Below, piece by piece: positions 1,514-7,172 of a DNA stretch of 64,000 nucleotides. The notes below the pieces were generated by a model. It had not been told where the DNA came from and made no database searches. It saw only the letters and a list, made by a program, of their open reading frames with translations. The position numbers and the translations under genes were made by a program. Source of the stretch: Agromyces humatus (lineage in GTDB: Bacteria > Actinomycetota > Actinomycetes > Actinomycetales > Microbacteriaceae); NCBI RefSeq assembly GCF_021228295.1, contig NZ_JAJQPD010000006.1, positions 186,001-250,000 on the forward strand, read 5' to 3'. The number at the start of each line of letters is the position of its first letter. Position 1 is the stretch's first letter.

Positions 1514-3004
1514 TCAGCGACTCGTGTCCTTCGAGCTGACAACCCGTGCCGCGGCTTCGGCCTCGGCCGTGATGCGATTCGCCATGCCGGAGAAGATCAC
1601 GTCGTGGAAGGGTACGATCAGCCACCAGTACGCGCGGCCGGCCAGTCCCTTCGGGAAGAACACCGCGCGCTGTTGATACACAGCGCCGTCGCCGTCGACC
1701 GAGGCACCGAGTTCGAGCCAGGCGCGGCCCGGAATCCGCATCTCGGCGCGCAGGCGCAGGAAGCTCCCCCGATCGATCGCTTCGACCCGCCAGAAGTCCA
1801 CGGCATCGCCGACGTGCAGCATCAGGGGGTCGCGACGACCGCGGCGAAGTCCGACGCCGCCGGTCAGCTTGTCGACCCAGCCCCGGATCGCCCAGAGCAA
1901 CGGGAACGAGTACCACCCGTTCTCACCGCCGACACCTTCGATCACGCGCCACAGATCGCTCACGTGCGCCGTGCAGCGCTGCTCACGCTCGTCGACGTAG
2001 ACCGTGTGCCCCGACCAGTCGGGGTCGCTCGGCAGCGGATCACTCGGCGCACCTGCGACCTCGGCATTGCGCCAGCTCGTCTCGACCTCGCCCTCGCGCT
2101 CCCGCTCGAGCGCGAGCCGGACCGCCGTGCGATACCTGAGCAGACCCTCGGCCGGCGGCGCGATGACTCGATCGATGTCGTGATCGTGCACAACGCAGTC
2201 GAACTGCAGCGACTCGATGATCGGCACAGCGAGTCGTCGTGGGATCGGGGTCACGAGGTTCACCCACTGCCCGGCGAGCCACGGGGTGAGCACCGGGAGT
2301 GCTGCGATCGGGCGCTGCGGCAGCCCTGCCTCCACCGCGTAGCCGTTCATCAGCTGCCCGTACCGGTAGATGTCGGGACCCCCGATATCGAACGCACGAT
2401 TCACGACCGACGGCACCTCGAGGGCATGGATCAGGTAGTGCAGCACGTCCCGCACCGCGATCGGCTGAATGTAGCTGCGAACCCACCGCGGCGCCGGCAT
2501 GTAGGGAAGCACGTCGGTGAGATGACGGATCATCTCGAATGAGGCGGAGCCCGAGCCGATGACCACGCCCGCCTGCAGGACGATCGTCGGCACGCCGGAT
2601 GCCAGAAGGATCTCGCCCACGTCCACGCGTGATCGAAGGTGCCGCGAGAGCCGATCCACATCGGGATGCAGGCCGCCGAGATAGACGATCCGACTGACGC
2701 CGTGCTCGCGTGCGGATGCGGCGACGTTGTGGGCGATCGAGCGCTCGATGGCCGCGAAATCGCCGTGCATGCCTCCCATGGAGTGCACGAGATAGAAGAC
2801 CGCGTCGATGTCCTGCATGGATCGGTCGACGGCTGCCCGGTCGGCGAGGTCGCCGGCGAGCACGTCGACCGAGGCCGCCCACGGCACATCGCGAAGCCGT
2901 TCGGGCCGGCGCACGAGTACCCGTACCTCGTGGCCGGCTTCGATGAGCCGGGGCACGAGCCGACCGCCGATGTACCCGGAGGCGCCGGTCACGAGCACAC
3001 GCAT
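1514..3004 (-). CDS. SDR-family NAD(P)-dependent oxidoreductase with C-terminal DUF2867
   Basis: A 496-residue two-part protein. The N-terminal 300 residues are an atypical short-chain dehydrogenase/epimerase fold, with the nucleotide-binding motif TGASGYIGG at residues 6-14 and the YLVHSMG stretch near residue 90. The C-terminal 170 or so residues match DUF2867 (WRVIEGVGGENGWYSFP, then WRVEAIDRGSFLRLRAEM). This fusion is common in actinobacteria and is usually annotated as an NAD(P)H-binding or nucleoside-diphosphate-sugar epimerase-like protein of unknown substrate. The ATG at 3004 has a clear ribosome site (GGGAGG, about 6 bases upstream). It is convergent with the carotenoid operon and separated from it by only 50 bases. 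No substrate is proposed. Confidence 0.85.
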   Translation of the reverse strand: MRVLVTGASGYIGGRLVPRLIEAGHEVRVLVRRPERLRDVPWAASVDVLAGDLADRAAVDRSMQDIDAVFYLVHSMGGMHGDFAAIERSIAHNVAASAREHGVSRIVYLGGLHPDVDRLSRHLRSRVDVGEILLASGVPTIVLQAGVVIGSGSASFEMIRHLTDVLPYMPAPRWVRSYIQPIAVRDVLHYLIHALEVPSVVNRAFDIGGPDIYRYGQLMNGYAVEAGLPQRPIAALPVLTPWLAGQWVNLVTPIPRRLAVPIIESLQFDCVVHDHDIDRVIAPPAEGLLRYRTAVRLALEREREGEVETSWRNAEVAGAPSDPLPSDPDWSGHTVYVDEREQRCTAHVSDLWRVIEGVGGENGWYSFPLLWAIRGWVDKLTGGVGLRRGRRDPLMLHVGDAVDFWRVEAIDRGSFLRLRAEMRIPGRAWLELGASVDGDGAVYQQRAVFFPKGLAGRAYWWLIVPFHDVIFSGMANRITAEAEAAARVVSSKDTSR

Positions 3005-3084
3005 GAAGCACCTCCCCCTGCTGACCGGCCAGATTCGGCGGAATGCGCAGCCGGGGACGTGTTCGCCGGTCCGCGGCCGGTCAC

Positions 3085-3840
3085 TCAGACGCCCCGGAGC
3101 TGTCCGCGGACGATCGAGTCGCCGGAGTGCGCGGGGTCACCGTCTGACGGCTCGGATGACACGTCGACAACCGGGAATTCGCCGAGGTCGATGCCGGGTG
3201 GCAGGGCGAACGTACCGGTGGTGTCATCGAGGAGGCCGAGGCTCACCAGTCCGGTCGCGTCTTCGCGCAGCAACCAGACTTCGCGAAGCTGGCCGGTTTC
3301 GGCATCTCCATCGAGTTCGACCACGATCGTTCGCCTGCCGTCGCTGCTCTCCTGGATGACCGCCCGCCCCTCGGCTGTCCAGCCGGGGAAGGGATCGAGG
3401 CGTGCCTCAGCGACGATGGACTCGTTCGGCGATGATGGCGGCAGGCGCGTGCCGATCGCTATGCCGGCCAGCACCCCGATCACCACTGCAGCGGCCGCGA
3501 CAGCGGGCCACCATCGCCAACCGCCTCGTCTCGACACGCCGCGGTCAGCGGCCCTGATCGGGGCAACAGAACGGGGCGTCTCGTCGCTCGCAATCGGATC
3601 GGACGCGAGTCGATCATCGAGCGACAGCTCGCGATGAATGCCCGCCCACACGGACGAGGACGGTCGTTCGAGGTCGAGATCGAGGTTCGCTTCAGAGGCG
3701 CGTACTTGCGCAGCCGCAGCCTGGAACGCCTCGTACTCGAACCGGCAGTCGTCGCATGCGCGCAGGTGTGTCGTCATGGCGGCGTCGGGTTCGCGCCCGT
3801 CGGCCGCGAGGGCGGCGAGTTCATCAGGCTCCGGGTGCAT
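3085..3840 (-). CDS. Zinc-type anti-sigma factor (RskA-like)
   Basis: A membrane anti-sigma factor that should hold the adjacent ECF sigma factor inactive. The N-terminal anti-sigma zinc motif H-x3-C-x2-C is visible (H25, C29, C32 in THLRACDDC). A single membrane helix follows a basic stretch at residues about 111-131, and the C-terminal outside domain is of the RskA kind (WTAEGRAVIQ, LREVWLLREDATGLVSLG, FALPPGIDLGEFPVVDVS). The start lies 17 bases inside the sigma gene, a typical coupled arrangement. In this family, release of the sigma factor usually involves regulated proteolysis of the anti-sigma factor; the signal here is unknown. Confidence 0.88.
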   Translation of the reverse strand: MHPEPDELAALAADGREPDAAMTTHLRACDDCRFEYEAFQAAAAQVRASEANLDLDLERPSSSVWAGIHRELSLDDRLASDPIASDETPRSVAPIRAADRGVSRRGGWRWWPAVAAAAVVIGVLAGIAIGTRLPPSSPNESIVAEARLDPFPGWTAEGRAVIQESSDGRRTIVVELDGDAETGQLREVWLLREDATGLVSLGLLDDTTGTFALPPGIDLGEFPVVDVSSEPSDGDPAHSGDSIVRGQLRGV

Positions 3841-4384
3841 CCTCCACCTCCCATCGTTCTCGAATCCGAGTCAGGCTCCTGCGAATGTGGCTCTTCACAG
3901 TGCCGAGCGGAAGGCCGAGTCGATCTGCGATCTGCGAGTGCGTCATCCGGTCGTAGAACGCCAATCGCATGACTTGCCGCGGCACCGGGTCGAGGCGGTC
4001 GAGCGCCTCCGAGACCATCGCACGTTCGGCGAGATCCTCGTCGAAGACACCGCCGTCGATCACGGCCTCGCCGGCGAGCCTGGCTTCGATTCGGCTCGTT
4101 CGGGCACGAGCTTCGTGGGCGTCGGCGATGCGGTGTCGCGAGATCCCTATGAGCCACGATTGCAGCGAAGCGCGGGTCGGATCGAAGCGTTCGCGACTGC
4201 GCCAGGCGGCGATGAACACCTGTTGCGTGACATCTTCGGCGTCCGACCTGTTGCCGAGCGAGCGGGCCGCGAGCGTGTAGACGAGGGGCGCCCAGCGAGC
4301 GTATGCCGCCCGAAGTGCCGCTTCGTCGCCACTGGCGAATCCCTCAGCGAGCGTGTCGTCTTCAGCGAAGGACGGTGCGCTCAT
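3824..4384 (-). CDS. ECF RNA polymerase sigma factor (SigK-like)
   Basis: A 186-residue sigma-70 family ECF factor. Region 2 is recognisable (YTLAARSLGNRSDAEDVTQQ, then FIAAWRSRERFDP), and region 4 carries the helix-turn-helix MTHSQIADRLGLPLGTVKSH. The frame is open 93 bases further upstream, but that extension looks non-coding. The ATG at 4384 (MSAPSFAEDD) fits normal ECF length and has AAAGGA about 13 bases before it. The gene overlaps its anti-sigma partner by 17 bases. The DUF4397 protein upstream on the same strand is a plausible target or co-regulated gene. Direct targets cannot be read from the window. Confidence 0.9.
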   Translation of the reverse strand: MSAPSFAEDDTLAEGFASGDEAALRAAYARWAPLVYTLAARSLGNRSDAEDVTQQVFIAAWRSRERFDPTRASLQSWLIGISRHRIADAHEARARTSRIEARLAGEAVIDGGVFDEDLAERAMVSEALDRLDPVPRQVMRLAFYDRMTHSQIADRLGLPLGTVKSHIRRSLTRIRERWEVEDAPGA

Positions 4385-4515
4385 CGACCGGAACCCATCC
4401 TTTCGCTCATCCCGACGGTGTTCCGGGATGAGGGCTCGACGCCGACGGTCCTGGGCGATCACCGTTGTGCTCAGCATATCGACCTCGGCTCATCCGGTCT
4501 CTCGTGCGGTCACGA

Positions 4516-4674
4516 TCACACACACCGCACGCGGCGGGCGACCCGGCTGATGTCGTCGACGTGGGAGGCTGCGCCATCGCCATCGCCATCGCCATCGCTA
4601 CTCGGCGAGACGGCGGACGTGAGCAGGGCGAAGGCCGCGATCGGGAGACGAATCGCGGCCTTCTTGGGGAGCAT
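4516..4674 (-). pseudogene. Small ORF with signal-like start after DUF4397 gene; possible class F sortase remnant
   Basis: Fifty-two codons starting five bases after the DUF4397 stop, with a strong ribosome site (AGAAGGAG, 8 bases before the ATG). The product begins MLPKKAAIRLPIAAFALLTS, a short basic then hydrophobic signal or anchor-like segment. It then runs into a four-fold Asp-Gly repeat and stops after 52 residues. In many actinobacteria a DUF4397 gene is followed by a class F sortase gene, so this may be the retained 5' end of a lost sortase. No sortase catalytic Cys or His motifs are seen in any frame before the sigma gene. It could also be a genuine small secreted peptide. Confidence 0.35.
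4573..4596. repeat. Four tandem copies of the hexamer GCCATC
   Basis: The hexamer GCCATC occurs four times in a row without change. On the minus strand it lies inside the small ORF at 4516-4674 and encodes Asp-Gly repeats. A 6-base unit keeps frame when it expands or shrinks, so the tract may vary in length between strains without disrupting the ORF. Confidence 0.9.
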
Positions 4675-4679
4675 CGGTG

Positions 4680-5516
4680 TCACTCCTTCTGTCGAGCGGC
4701 GGCACTGCGACGCATCAGCACGGCTGCGACGGCAGCCGCGCCCAGCAGCATCGTGGCTCCCGCGGCGAGCCAGACGCCCGCGCCCGCATCGGGGGCGTTC
4801 GTCGCGACCAGGCCGGCAGAACCCGCAGGGACACCGTCCGGGTTCGAGTGCATCCCGGTGACGGTCTGGATCGCGAGCGCCAGGTTGTCGTCGTCGAGGC
4901 TGCCCCAGGCGTACACGATCGTGTTCGCGCCTTCGGCGACCTCGACGTCAGCCGGGCCGAGCACCGGATCCGTCGTGCCGGCGGCAGCGACCGACGCGGA
5001 GACCGTACCGGCAGCCAGGTCGAGCTTCGCCTCATCGGGGTTGGCGAGGTTCGTGATCACCGCAGTTCCACCCGCCAGCACATCCACCGCGGGCGCAGCC
5101 GCGACATGGCGAACGGTGAGACGTCCCTCGCCTGCGGCGGTTTGGGCTGTGTCGTTCGTGAACAGCGTGGCGGTCGGTTCACCGGCTTCGGTGAGGTGCG
5201 CGACGGCCGTGTAGTTCATCCCTGACTCGAGTGCGAGGTCGACAGGGCCGATCGCGGGCGACGATGCATCAGCGGCATCAGAAGCGGTGATCGCGACGCT
5301 GTATGTCCCGGCCGGCAGCTCGAGGGGTCCCGCGAGATCCCCTGGTGCGAAGTCGTCGAGCGTGAGGTCATCGTTCACGTACACGTCTACGGTGAGGTCA
5401 GGCACGCCGTGCAGCACGGACAGCATTGCCGGTGCTTCAGATGCCTGGGCCGGGGCGAAGCCGGCCAAGGCGACGGCGGCGCCGGCGATGACTCCGGCGA
5501 TGGCGGTGCGCTTCAT
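4680..5516 (-). CDS. DUF4397 domain-containing exported, membrane-anchored protein
   Basis: A 278-residue surface protein of unknown role. Residues 1-25 are a signal peptide (MKRTAIAGVIAGAAVALAGF, cleavage near AQASEA). Two related DUF4397 modules follow: LSVLHGVPDLTVDVYVND with LPAGTYSVAIT, and LTVRHVAAAPAVDVLAGG with LDLAAGTVSASV. The C-terminus has a flexible segment, one hydrophobic helix (about residues 245-268) and a basic tail RRSAAARQKE, so the protein is probably anchored with its body outside the cell. GGAGGAACC precedes the ATG. It is followed on the same strand by a small ORF and the ECF sigma/anti-sigma pair, a grouping seen in other actinobacteria. Confidence 0.85.
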   Translation of the reverse strand: MKRTAIAGVIAGAAVALAGFAPAQASEAPAMLSVLHGVPDLTVDVYVNDDLTLDDFAPGDLAGPLELPAGTYSVAITASDAADASSPAIGPVDLALESGMNYTAVAHLTEAGEPTATLFTNDTAQTAAGEGRLTVRHVAAAPAVDVLAGGTAVITNLANPDEAKLDLAAGTVSASVAAAGTTDPVLGPADVEVAEGANTIVYAWGSLDDDNLALAIQTVTGMHSNPDGVPAGSAGLVATNAPDAGAGVWLAAGATMLLGAAAVAAVLMRRSAAARQKE

Positions 5517-5536
5517 GGTTCCTCCAGATGGATTCA

Positions 5537-5554: not shown

Positions 5555-5697
5555 GAAGGACTTCCGACGGTGCGTCGCGATCGGATGCAGCAGCATCGGA
5601 TTCTGCTCGACTGCATCCATCCGACCTCGACCACGGGAATCATCTTTCGACGGCGCTGCACACGACATGGGGCGCCGCGGAATGCGGAATGAAGAAG

Positions 5698-5729
5698 GGC
5701 GGGTCGGATCCGCCGAGATCCGACCCGCC
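5698..5729. other. Perfect 12-bp stem-loop between divergent genes
   Basis: GGCGGGTCGGAT and its exact complement flank an 8-base loop. It lies in the 250-base divergent region between the DUF4397 gene (minus strand) and the TIGR01777 gene (plus strand). It looks like a strong terminator hairpin, but neither neighbour needs one here. It may be a 5' leader structure of the plus-strand gene or the relic of a lost gene. Confidence 0.5.
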
Positions 5730-5766
5730 GCTCCTCACCCCATCGAGCTTCGAGAACGGAGTCGAC

Positions 5767-6720
5767 ATGACCACCGTGGTGATCGCCGGGTCATCCGGCA
5801 TGATCGGCAGCGCCCTGACGCAACGTCTGCGCGCGGACGGAGTCTCGGTGGTGCGGCTCGTCCGTCGGCCCGTCCGACGCGGCGACGAGGTCGAGTGGCT
5901 CGCTGAGGGTCGACCACTCGACCCGCAGGTGGTCGCTGGAGCGAGCGCTGTCGTCTGTCTCAATGGGGCGAGCATCGGGCGGCTTCCATGGACGCGGAGG
6001 TATCAACGCACCTTGCGCGAGTCGCGCCTGCGCCCGACGCGGGCCCTCGCGACGGCACTGCGCGCACTCGGCGCTGAGGCTCCCGCGTTCATCTCGGCAT
6101 CAGCCGTCGGCTACTACGGCAACCGACCGGGTGTCGAGCTCACGGAGAGGGCTGCTCCAGGCGCGACGTTCCTCGCCGATCTCTGCCGGGAATGGGAACG
6201 GGAGGCGAGGCGAGCCGGCGACGCGTGCCGTGTCGTCCGCATGCGCACGGCACCGGTGCTGCACCGCAACGGTGTGCTGAAGCCACTCGTCCGCCTCACG
6301 TCTCTCGGGCTGGGCGGGCCGATCGGGCGCGGGACGCAGACCTGGCCGTGGATCTCGCTGGAGGACGAAGTCCGCGCGATCAGGCACGTGATCGCAACCG
6401 ACATCGACGGTGCGGTGAACCTCTCGGGACCGACACCGGCCACCGCGAACGAGATCGGACGATCCGTGGCTCATGCCCTGCGCCGTCCCTTCATGCTGCC
6501 CGTCCCGGAATGGGCGCTCGACCTCGTCATCGGGCGCGCGGCAACTGAGTCGCTGCTGACCGCCGATGCTCGCGTGACCCCTGCCGTACTCGAGAACACG
6601 GGCTTCACGTTCAGGCATCGCACGGCACGCGAGGCGACCCTGGCGGCCATTGCGCCGAACTCAGCCCCATTCGACCGCGACGAGCACTCGCGATACCGGG
6701 TGCGAAGGGAAGCTGGATGA
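5767..6720 (+). CDS. TIGR01777 family epimerase-like protein
   Basis: A 317-residue member of the TIGR01777 (SulA/YfcH-like) branch of extended SDR proteins. The NAD(P)-binding motif is near the start (VIAGSSGMIGSALTQRL). Family hallmarks follow: LNGASIGRLPWTRRYQRTL, then SASAVGYYGNR, and RGTQTWPWISLEDEVRAI. The frame is open far upstream, but the ATG at 5767 fits family length and has GGAG 5 bases before it. The reaction is unknown for most of this family. Its stop overlaps the start of a photolyase remnant (ATGA at 6717), so it probably once headed an operon with a DNA photolyase. Confidence 0.88.
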   Translation: MTTVVIAGSSGMIGSALTQRLRADGVSVVRLVRRPVRRGDEVEWLAEGRPLDPQVVAGASAVVCLNGASIGRLPWTRRYQRTLRESRLRPTRALATALRALGAEAPAFISASAVGYYGNRPGVELTERAAPGATFLADLCREWEREARRAGDACRVVRMRTAPVLHRNGVLKPLVRLTSLGLGGPIGRGTQTWPWISLEDEVRAIRHVIATDIDGAVNLSGPTPATANEIGRSVAHALRRPFMLPVPEWALDLVIGRAATESLLTADARVTPAVLENTGFTFRHRTAREATLAAIAPNSAPFDRDEHSRYRVRREAG

Positions 6721-6770
6721 GGACTGCAGCGGTGCTGTTCACTCGCGACCTGCGGGTGCCGGATGCAGGT
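6717..6770 (+). pseudogene. Remnant of a DNA photolyase start
   Basis: The ATG at 6717 overlaps the TIGR01777 stop. The first 16 codons read MRTAAVLFTRDLRVPD, closely matching the N-terminus of class I photolyases/cryptochromes (VLFTRDLRVHD). After residue 16 the similarity stops. The frame runs on through unrelated sequence and fuses in frame with the YciI gene that has its own ribosome site. About 450 codons of photolyase are missing, so this is a deletion scar. Confidence that the similarity is real is good because FTRDLRV is highly characteristic. Confidence 0.6.
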
Positions 6771-6851
6771 GCGCCGTGGCCGACTGCCCGACGAGGTCGC
6801 GCGAGCAGTGCGCGAGTACAACACACACCCGCGATTGACAAGGAGACGATG

Positions 6852-7172
6852 ATGACCGATGCACTACCCAACTGGGGCGACACGTACCTCTACACATTGC
6901 GGCCGACGCGTGTCGCGATGCTCACCGACGGCCCGACCGACAGGGAGAACGCCGCAGCAGCGGCGCACTGGGTGCGGCTCGAGTCCGAGCACGCGGCCGG
7001 GCAGGTCGTGTTCGCGGGTCGCACGCTCGTCAACGACGAGCGCAACTTCGCCGCCATCGTCTTCAAGGCGGGCTCGCTCGAGGAGGCGCGGGCGTTCGCC
7101 GAGGCCGACCCAGCGGTTGTCGCCGGGGTGTTCCGGCCGGAGGTGTATCGGTTCGAGGCGATGCTGGGGTGA
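6852..7172 (+). CDS. YciI family protein
   Basis: A small (about 106 residue) protein of the YciI/YCII dimeric alpha-beta barrel family, members of which bind small metabolites and often sit beside other enzymes. Family features: YLYTLRPTRVAMLTDGPT, then HWVRLESEHAAGQVVFAGRT and EEARAFAEADPAVVAGVFRPEV, with the central conserved Asp in FAEADP. Two ATG codons occur in tandem at 6849 and 6852. AAGGAG lies 6 bases before the second, so 6852 is chosen. The frame also reads back into the upstream photolyase remnant, but the strong ribosome site shows the gene starts here. A terminator hairpin follows. Confidence 0.85.
   Translation: MTDALPNWGDTYLYTLRPTRVAMLTDGPTDRENAAAAAHWVRLESEHAAGQVVFAGRTLVNDERNFAAIVFKAGSLEEARAFAEADPAVVAGVFRPEVYRFEAMLG

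Follow-up and report, generated by a model that had tools for sequence, protein, structure and literature searches.

The first 16 codons of the open frame that begins in the stop codon of a TIGR01777-family gene are very probably the start of a photolyase gene, judging from the translated sequence. The best explanation, to which we give a probability of roughly three in four, is that positions 6717-6764 are the surviving 5' end of such a gene, the rest of which was deleted so that a YciI-family gene was brought near. This looks like an ordinary remnant of a lost second photolyase and a case of ordinary gene decay, of little consequence overall. It records the disappearance of a photolyase whose clade was unseen among the family members inspected, and it adjoins carotenoid-type genes and a sigma-factor module. 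Positions refer to the whole stretch of Agromyces humatus DNA that was analysed (the window, 64,000 nucleotides), in which the features around the break are as follows:

5767-6720, + strand: TIGR01777-family NAD(P)-dependent epimerase-like gene (NCBIfam TIGR01777, E 6.6e-75)
6717-6764, + strand: probable remnant, codons 1-16 of a '(R)TAVVLFTRDLRVHD'-clade photolyase (intact members L241-L255)
6765-6848, + strand: spacer in which no frame shows a coding signal; may be the decayed tail of a gene (photolyase or other)
6763-6852, + strand: short open reading frame (ORF) MQVRRGRLPDEVARAVREYNTHPRLTRRR in another frame, its TGA overlapping the YciI ATG; candidate tail of the gene on the far side
6840-6845, + strand: Shine-Dalgarno-like AAGGAG before YciI
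6849-7172, + strand: YciI-family gene (PF03795), start ATG 6849 or 6852

The TIGR01777 gene, of which the genome has a second family copy on contig C4 (45% identical), stops at TGA 6718-6720. An ATG at 6717-6719 overlaps this stop, so the photolyase-like start sits in the TIGR01777 stop codon, as the first-pass annotation had reported. From this ATG, 151 codons are open (6717-7172); the first 16 of them read MRTAAVLFTRDLRVPD, and YciI makes up the end of the frame.

That these codons match a photolyase N-terminus, as first proposed, is supported by a start matrix and a pattern search. The matrix, built from 15 FTRDLRV photolyases, scores 28.6 bits at 6723 against 15.3 for the runner-up in all six frames of the window; the score is partly circular, because the matrix sequences trace to a motif pattern and to a profile built from it (7 of the 15 came from a pattern derived from this motif, the remaining eight from a profile of six of those). 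When V[VL]FTRDLRV was searched for as a 27-base degenerate pattern in 246 genomes of the class, seven genomes matched, always where an intact photolyase begins; the rows shown for the reversed control pattern contained no match. From 297 genomes of the order, the profile of six FTRDLRV photolyases retrieved ten photolyases at E ≤1e-110, and eight of the ten carry FTRDLRV. Intact photolyases of the same bacterial class begin (R)TAVVLFTRDLRVHD, and by eye the series R-T-A-x-V-L-F-T-R-D-L-R-V-x-D agrees with the intact photolyase L247 at 13 of 15 positions. The N-terminal strand motif V-L-F-T-R-D-L-R-V of the photolyase/cryptochrome superfamily is present. With codon log-likelihoods derived from ten window genes, the 16 codons score +4.3 bits in this frame and negatively in the other five. 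The first 24 residues of the frame found no match in plasmids, and 22 of its residues found none in solved structures.

Photolyases of the (R)TAVVLFTRDLRVHD type, which carry PF00875 and PF03441 (e.g., L242-L247), share these first 16 codons, but both domains (~420 residues) are missing here. At E values up to 10, antenna-binding PF00875 matched neither the 151-residue frame nor its first 44 residues, which taken alone match no Pfam family at all, and FAD-binding PF03441, present in L247 and in the genome's own intact photolyase (L001), is absent from the frame. The earlier statement that the remainder of the photolyase is gone therefore holds for any recognisable photolyase domain, YciI being the only Pfam match in the frame. 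Because the antenna and FAD domains are both missing, the 16 codons cannot act as a photolyase.

We consider a deletion likely, and the wording first used for the locus, a clean deletion scar in a DNA-repair operon, is plausible as a reading of the sequence. A photolyase gene would once have stood behind the TIGR01777 gene, overlapping it at ATGA. From about codon 16 on, a deletion would then have removed the rest and brought the YciI start to within ~85 bases. YciI would be translated from its own start at 6849 or 6852, with the 151-codon frame as a by-product. A full gene at this place, a single deletion removing it and an internal YciI start would together make up this history. The data themselves show the sequence match, the difference in clade, the spacer devoid of coding signal and the intact copy elsewhere. 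Ordinary bacterial deletion remnants likewise consist of a short 5' gene piece in an otherwise intact row of genes, and only the clade of the lost gene is notable here.

An intact TIGR01777-photolyase pair was not seen in the loci examined, which counts against the deletion. Among 12 loci of TIGR01777 relatives (16 kb), one (L062) has a photolyase, which is of the other clade and lies 3.7 kb left of the TIGR01777 gene. The closest TIGR01777 gene, from Agromyces cavernae (76%), ends earlier and is followed by a gene reading as a transporter. A strict motif scan of all 48 TIGR01777 loci, accompanied by tblastn on L104 and L105 only, found no photolyase start, and in plasmids the best place for the TIGR01777 gene was 42.5% identical. 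Genomes with FTRDLRV photolyases have a listed TIGR01777 match in 14 of 15 cases, each of them on a different contig from the photolyase or more than 1 Mb away, with mainly one copy listed per genome and several of the genomes being drafts. None of 20 genus loci with the anti-sigma/ECF/DUF4397 module has a photolyase; these loci represent 20 of the 21 other genus genomes with a match of at least 58%, G016 being left out. At E 1e-8, none of 24 related loci had a DNA match over 6700-6860. A literature search returned no paper on TIGR01777 together with a photolyase.

Relatives without a photolyase at this place, named by the first-pass annotation as evidence against its reading, were therefore found in form, but none was seen with TIGR01777 and YciI adjacent. 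Because none has the same arrangement, the relatives' loci do not test the deletion, and because no relative in the loci examined has a photolyase behind TIGR01777, the deletion is something that we infer.

Within the deletion reading, the sequence behind the break may have come from a second gene. The photolyase start would then run into the final ~28 codons of another gene, with a TGA that overlaps the YciI ATG, a tentative reading that we nevertheless take seriously. The 29-codon ORF at 6763-6852 ends exactly in an ATGA overlap (6849-6852), the way in which genes of an operon are usually coupled. Of the six frames, that of the ORF scores least negatively for codon use (-5.9, against -7.8 and -18.8 for the other + frames), but the value is still below zero, and no family matches the ORF: Pfam and NCBIfam gave no match at E values up to 10, and two plasmid matches at E 7 are at chance level. 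YciI itself was without a match at E 1e-12 in 248 other genomes of the family, so the native gene upstream of YciI could not be seen.

The spacer might instead stem from the photolyase itself, the 16 codons being followed, in shifted frames, by part of the decayed C-terminal tail of the same gene after an internal deletion; we think this possible but rather doubtful. In the spacer, '..GAPW..' and '..LPDEVARAV..' were set against '..AVHxPWxLPDE..RAL..' of photolyases; by eye, RLPDE followed by R-A and Y fits L247 too. A frameshift-tolerant alignment to a C-terminal profile of 15 photolyases scored 18.0 bits in 6717-6860, a value that includes the remnant's own bases and that 19 of 1419 control blocks from the window also attain, while 6764-6852 alone scored 16.8 bits, reached by 11 of 1000 shuffles. 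Such rates, 1 in 75 to 1 in 91, are weak for a post hoc idea. The alignment stops at base 6807, beyond which the likeness (EY, TPAID) is by eye only; the score without frameshifts is 12.1, which 43 of 790 unrelated gene tails reach, and at least eight peaks on the + strand and at least six on the - strand of the window score higher. LPDEVARAV and LLDEVARAVRE also occur inside two long unrelated frames of relatives (L299 and L298), and because they are encoded there such words are commonplace. In view of the control blocks, shuffles and unrelated gene tails, a spacer derived from a photolyase tail is only a rival.

A DNA search with 5769-7172 against 60 relatives gave four short matches (29-57 bases, E 3.7e-5 to 5.5e-4) touching the remnant or spacer. 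Each lies in a separate place: one in a long frame reading as carbamoyl-phosphate synthase, one in a long frame reading as a response regulator, one in the G006 ECF gene and one in an unassigned stretch. We regard these matches as chance similarity in GC-rich code.

The first-pass annotation also described the photolyase start as fused in frame to YciI. The frame is indeed open through 151 codons, but a photolyase-YciI fusion is not supported, and the long frame is most likely an accident of open reading. Against the fusion stand the codon use of the spacer, the Shine-Dalgarno-like site and start codon that YciI has of its own, and the chance of an open frame. PF03795 matches residues 70-145 of the 151-residue frame (E 8.5e-11; 42.6 bits against a cut-off of 24), so that the downstream gene is a member of the YciI family and the 44-residue leader of the long frame lies outside the family domain. 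From ATG 6849, YciI has a codon score of +46.2 bits and a GC3 of 0.89, and the ATG ATG at 6849/6852 is preceded by the AAGGAG. Codon scores across the spacer (6765-6848) are negative in all six frames. Dinucleotide shuffles of these 84 bases were open in 2461 of 5000 cases, and stretches sampled across the window in 2475 of 3456. As the spacer is so often open by chance, the long frame needs no fusion; in GC-rich DNA, a frame that stays open across two pieces of genes is weak evidence of one.

A real fusion would have ribosomes that stop at the end of TIGR01777 restart at ATG 6717 and make a 151-residue YciI with a 44-residue leader. The open frame and the restart that an ATGA overlap permits agree with it, but given a spacer with non-coding codon use, the half of shuffles that are open and the start signals of YciI itself, we judge it very unlikely. 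In the closest YciI relative found (52%), which lies on a Gemmatirosa plasmid, an ATG stands at roughly the start of the short form, and the frame is also open further upstream. No similar stretch was found upstream of that plasmid gene, and no YciI relatives were found in phages or viral contigs. YciI (6849-7172) was possibly acquired from afar.

It is still less probable that the start of the photolyase survives because it serves as a translational coupler or leader, with termination at TIGR01777 and a restart at ATG 6717 driving translation through the spacer and tuning YciI; if this were true, the start signal of a dead repair gene would have been reused. A chance resemblance, with no photolyase ever present at this place, would agree with the lack of a photolyase at this place in the relatives' loci examined, but it is hardly credible beside the gap between 28.6 bits and the next best of all frames, the seven of seven pattern matches at photolyase starts, and a start codon placed in an ATGA overlap before coding-like codon use.

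The lost gene was of another clade than the photolyase the genome retains. A check for another photolyase in the genome, suggested at the outset, turned up an intact one on contig C10 (L001, from 288711 on; 454 residues, both domains), the only PF00875 match of the genome. It belongs to the same superfamily as the remnant, but its start, MSVAPSIVWFRDDLRVADHPAL, is that of another clade, and seven intact members of the FTRDLRV type are 38-40% identical to it. With this intact copy, the cell still has a photolyase on paper. Our survey of photolyase starts inspected 59 genus and family loci, only part of the existing photolyases; an FTRDLR start occurs in none of the 58 that were readable, the genome's own intact one included, and it is for this reason that we place the lost gene in another clade. 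None of the ten genomes found with the order profile belongs to the same family; that no FTRDLRV photolyase was seen in the family weighs against the main reading. Photolyases were found in 179 of 249 family genomes, and their patchy presence in the genus (32 of 60 genomes) was counted in favour of gene loss. The lost photolyase may have been acquired from outside.

To the left of TIGR01777 lie genes for a UbiA-type prenyltransferase, a DUF2867 SDR, an RskA-like anti-sigma factor, an ECF sigma factor and a DUF4397 protein, and two small frames at 3-589, which may encode lycopene cyclase subunits. For the genus relatives L168 and L169, DNA similarity extends over most of 3076-5529 and in both cases stops at 5529, 13 bases before the DUF4397 start codon. 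The anti-sigma/ECF/DUF4397 module (window 3076-5529) stays together in all 20 genus loci taken. Similarity around the SDR extends over ~1545-3003 in three other relatives, and six of the 24 loci compared, those with matches listed, have none between 5530 and 7500. The region thus looks like a mosaic.

A search based on the SDR yielded 19 loci of 17-20 kb, of which one (L233, from another genus of the family) has a photolyase; this is no rate, because the L233 genome was picked for a known closeness of SDR and photolyase. There, the SDR and DUF4397 flank a photolyase of the other clade, and ECF and anti-sigma genes are close by, which shows that a cluster of this kind can include a photolyase. 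In L233 (G390:C51:445000-464900), the UbiA-type prenyltransferase, SDR-DUF2867, photolyase, DUF4397, ECF sigma, anti-sigma, MarR (29%) and MMPL (37%) matches fall within ~15 kb, in an arrangement resembling that of the window and with the photolyase adjoining DUF4397. Four of the seven loci L241-L247 (L242, L244, L245 and L246) have a 59-61% relative of SDR-DUF2867, divergently oriented, beside their FTRDLRV photolyase.

The surroundings are reminiscent of the light-responsive LitS-type regulon of Streptomyces. In C. glutamicum, the crt genes were light-induced via CrtR, while phrB was not largely affected (PMC6739363).

Just before the TIGR01777 start, a hairpin at 5690-5737 (14 pairs) is followed, on the - strand, by CTTCTTCATT; no - strand gene was seen to end at it, and the count of such hairpin-type sites (one) is not above that in shuffles (mean 0.6, sd 0.8). 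A short tandem run of GCCATC units lies at 4570-4600, between the ECF and DUF4397 genes.
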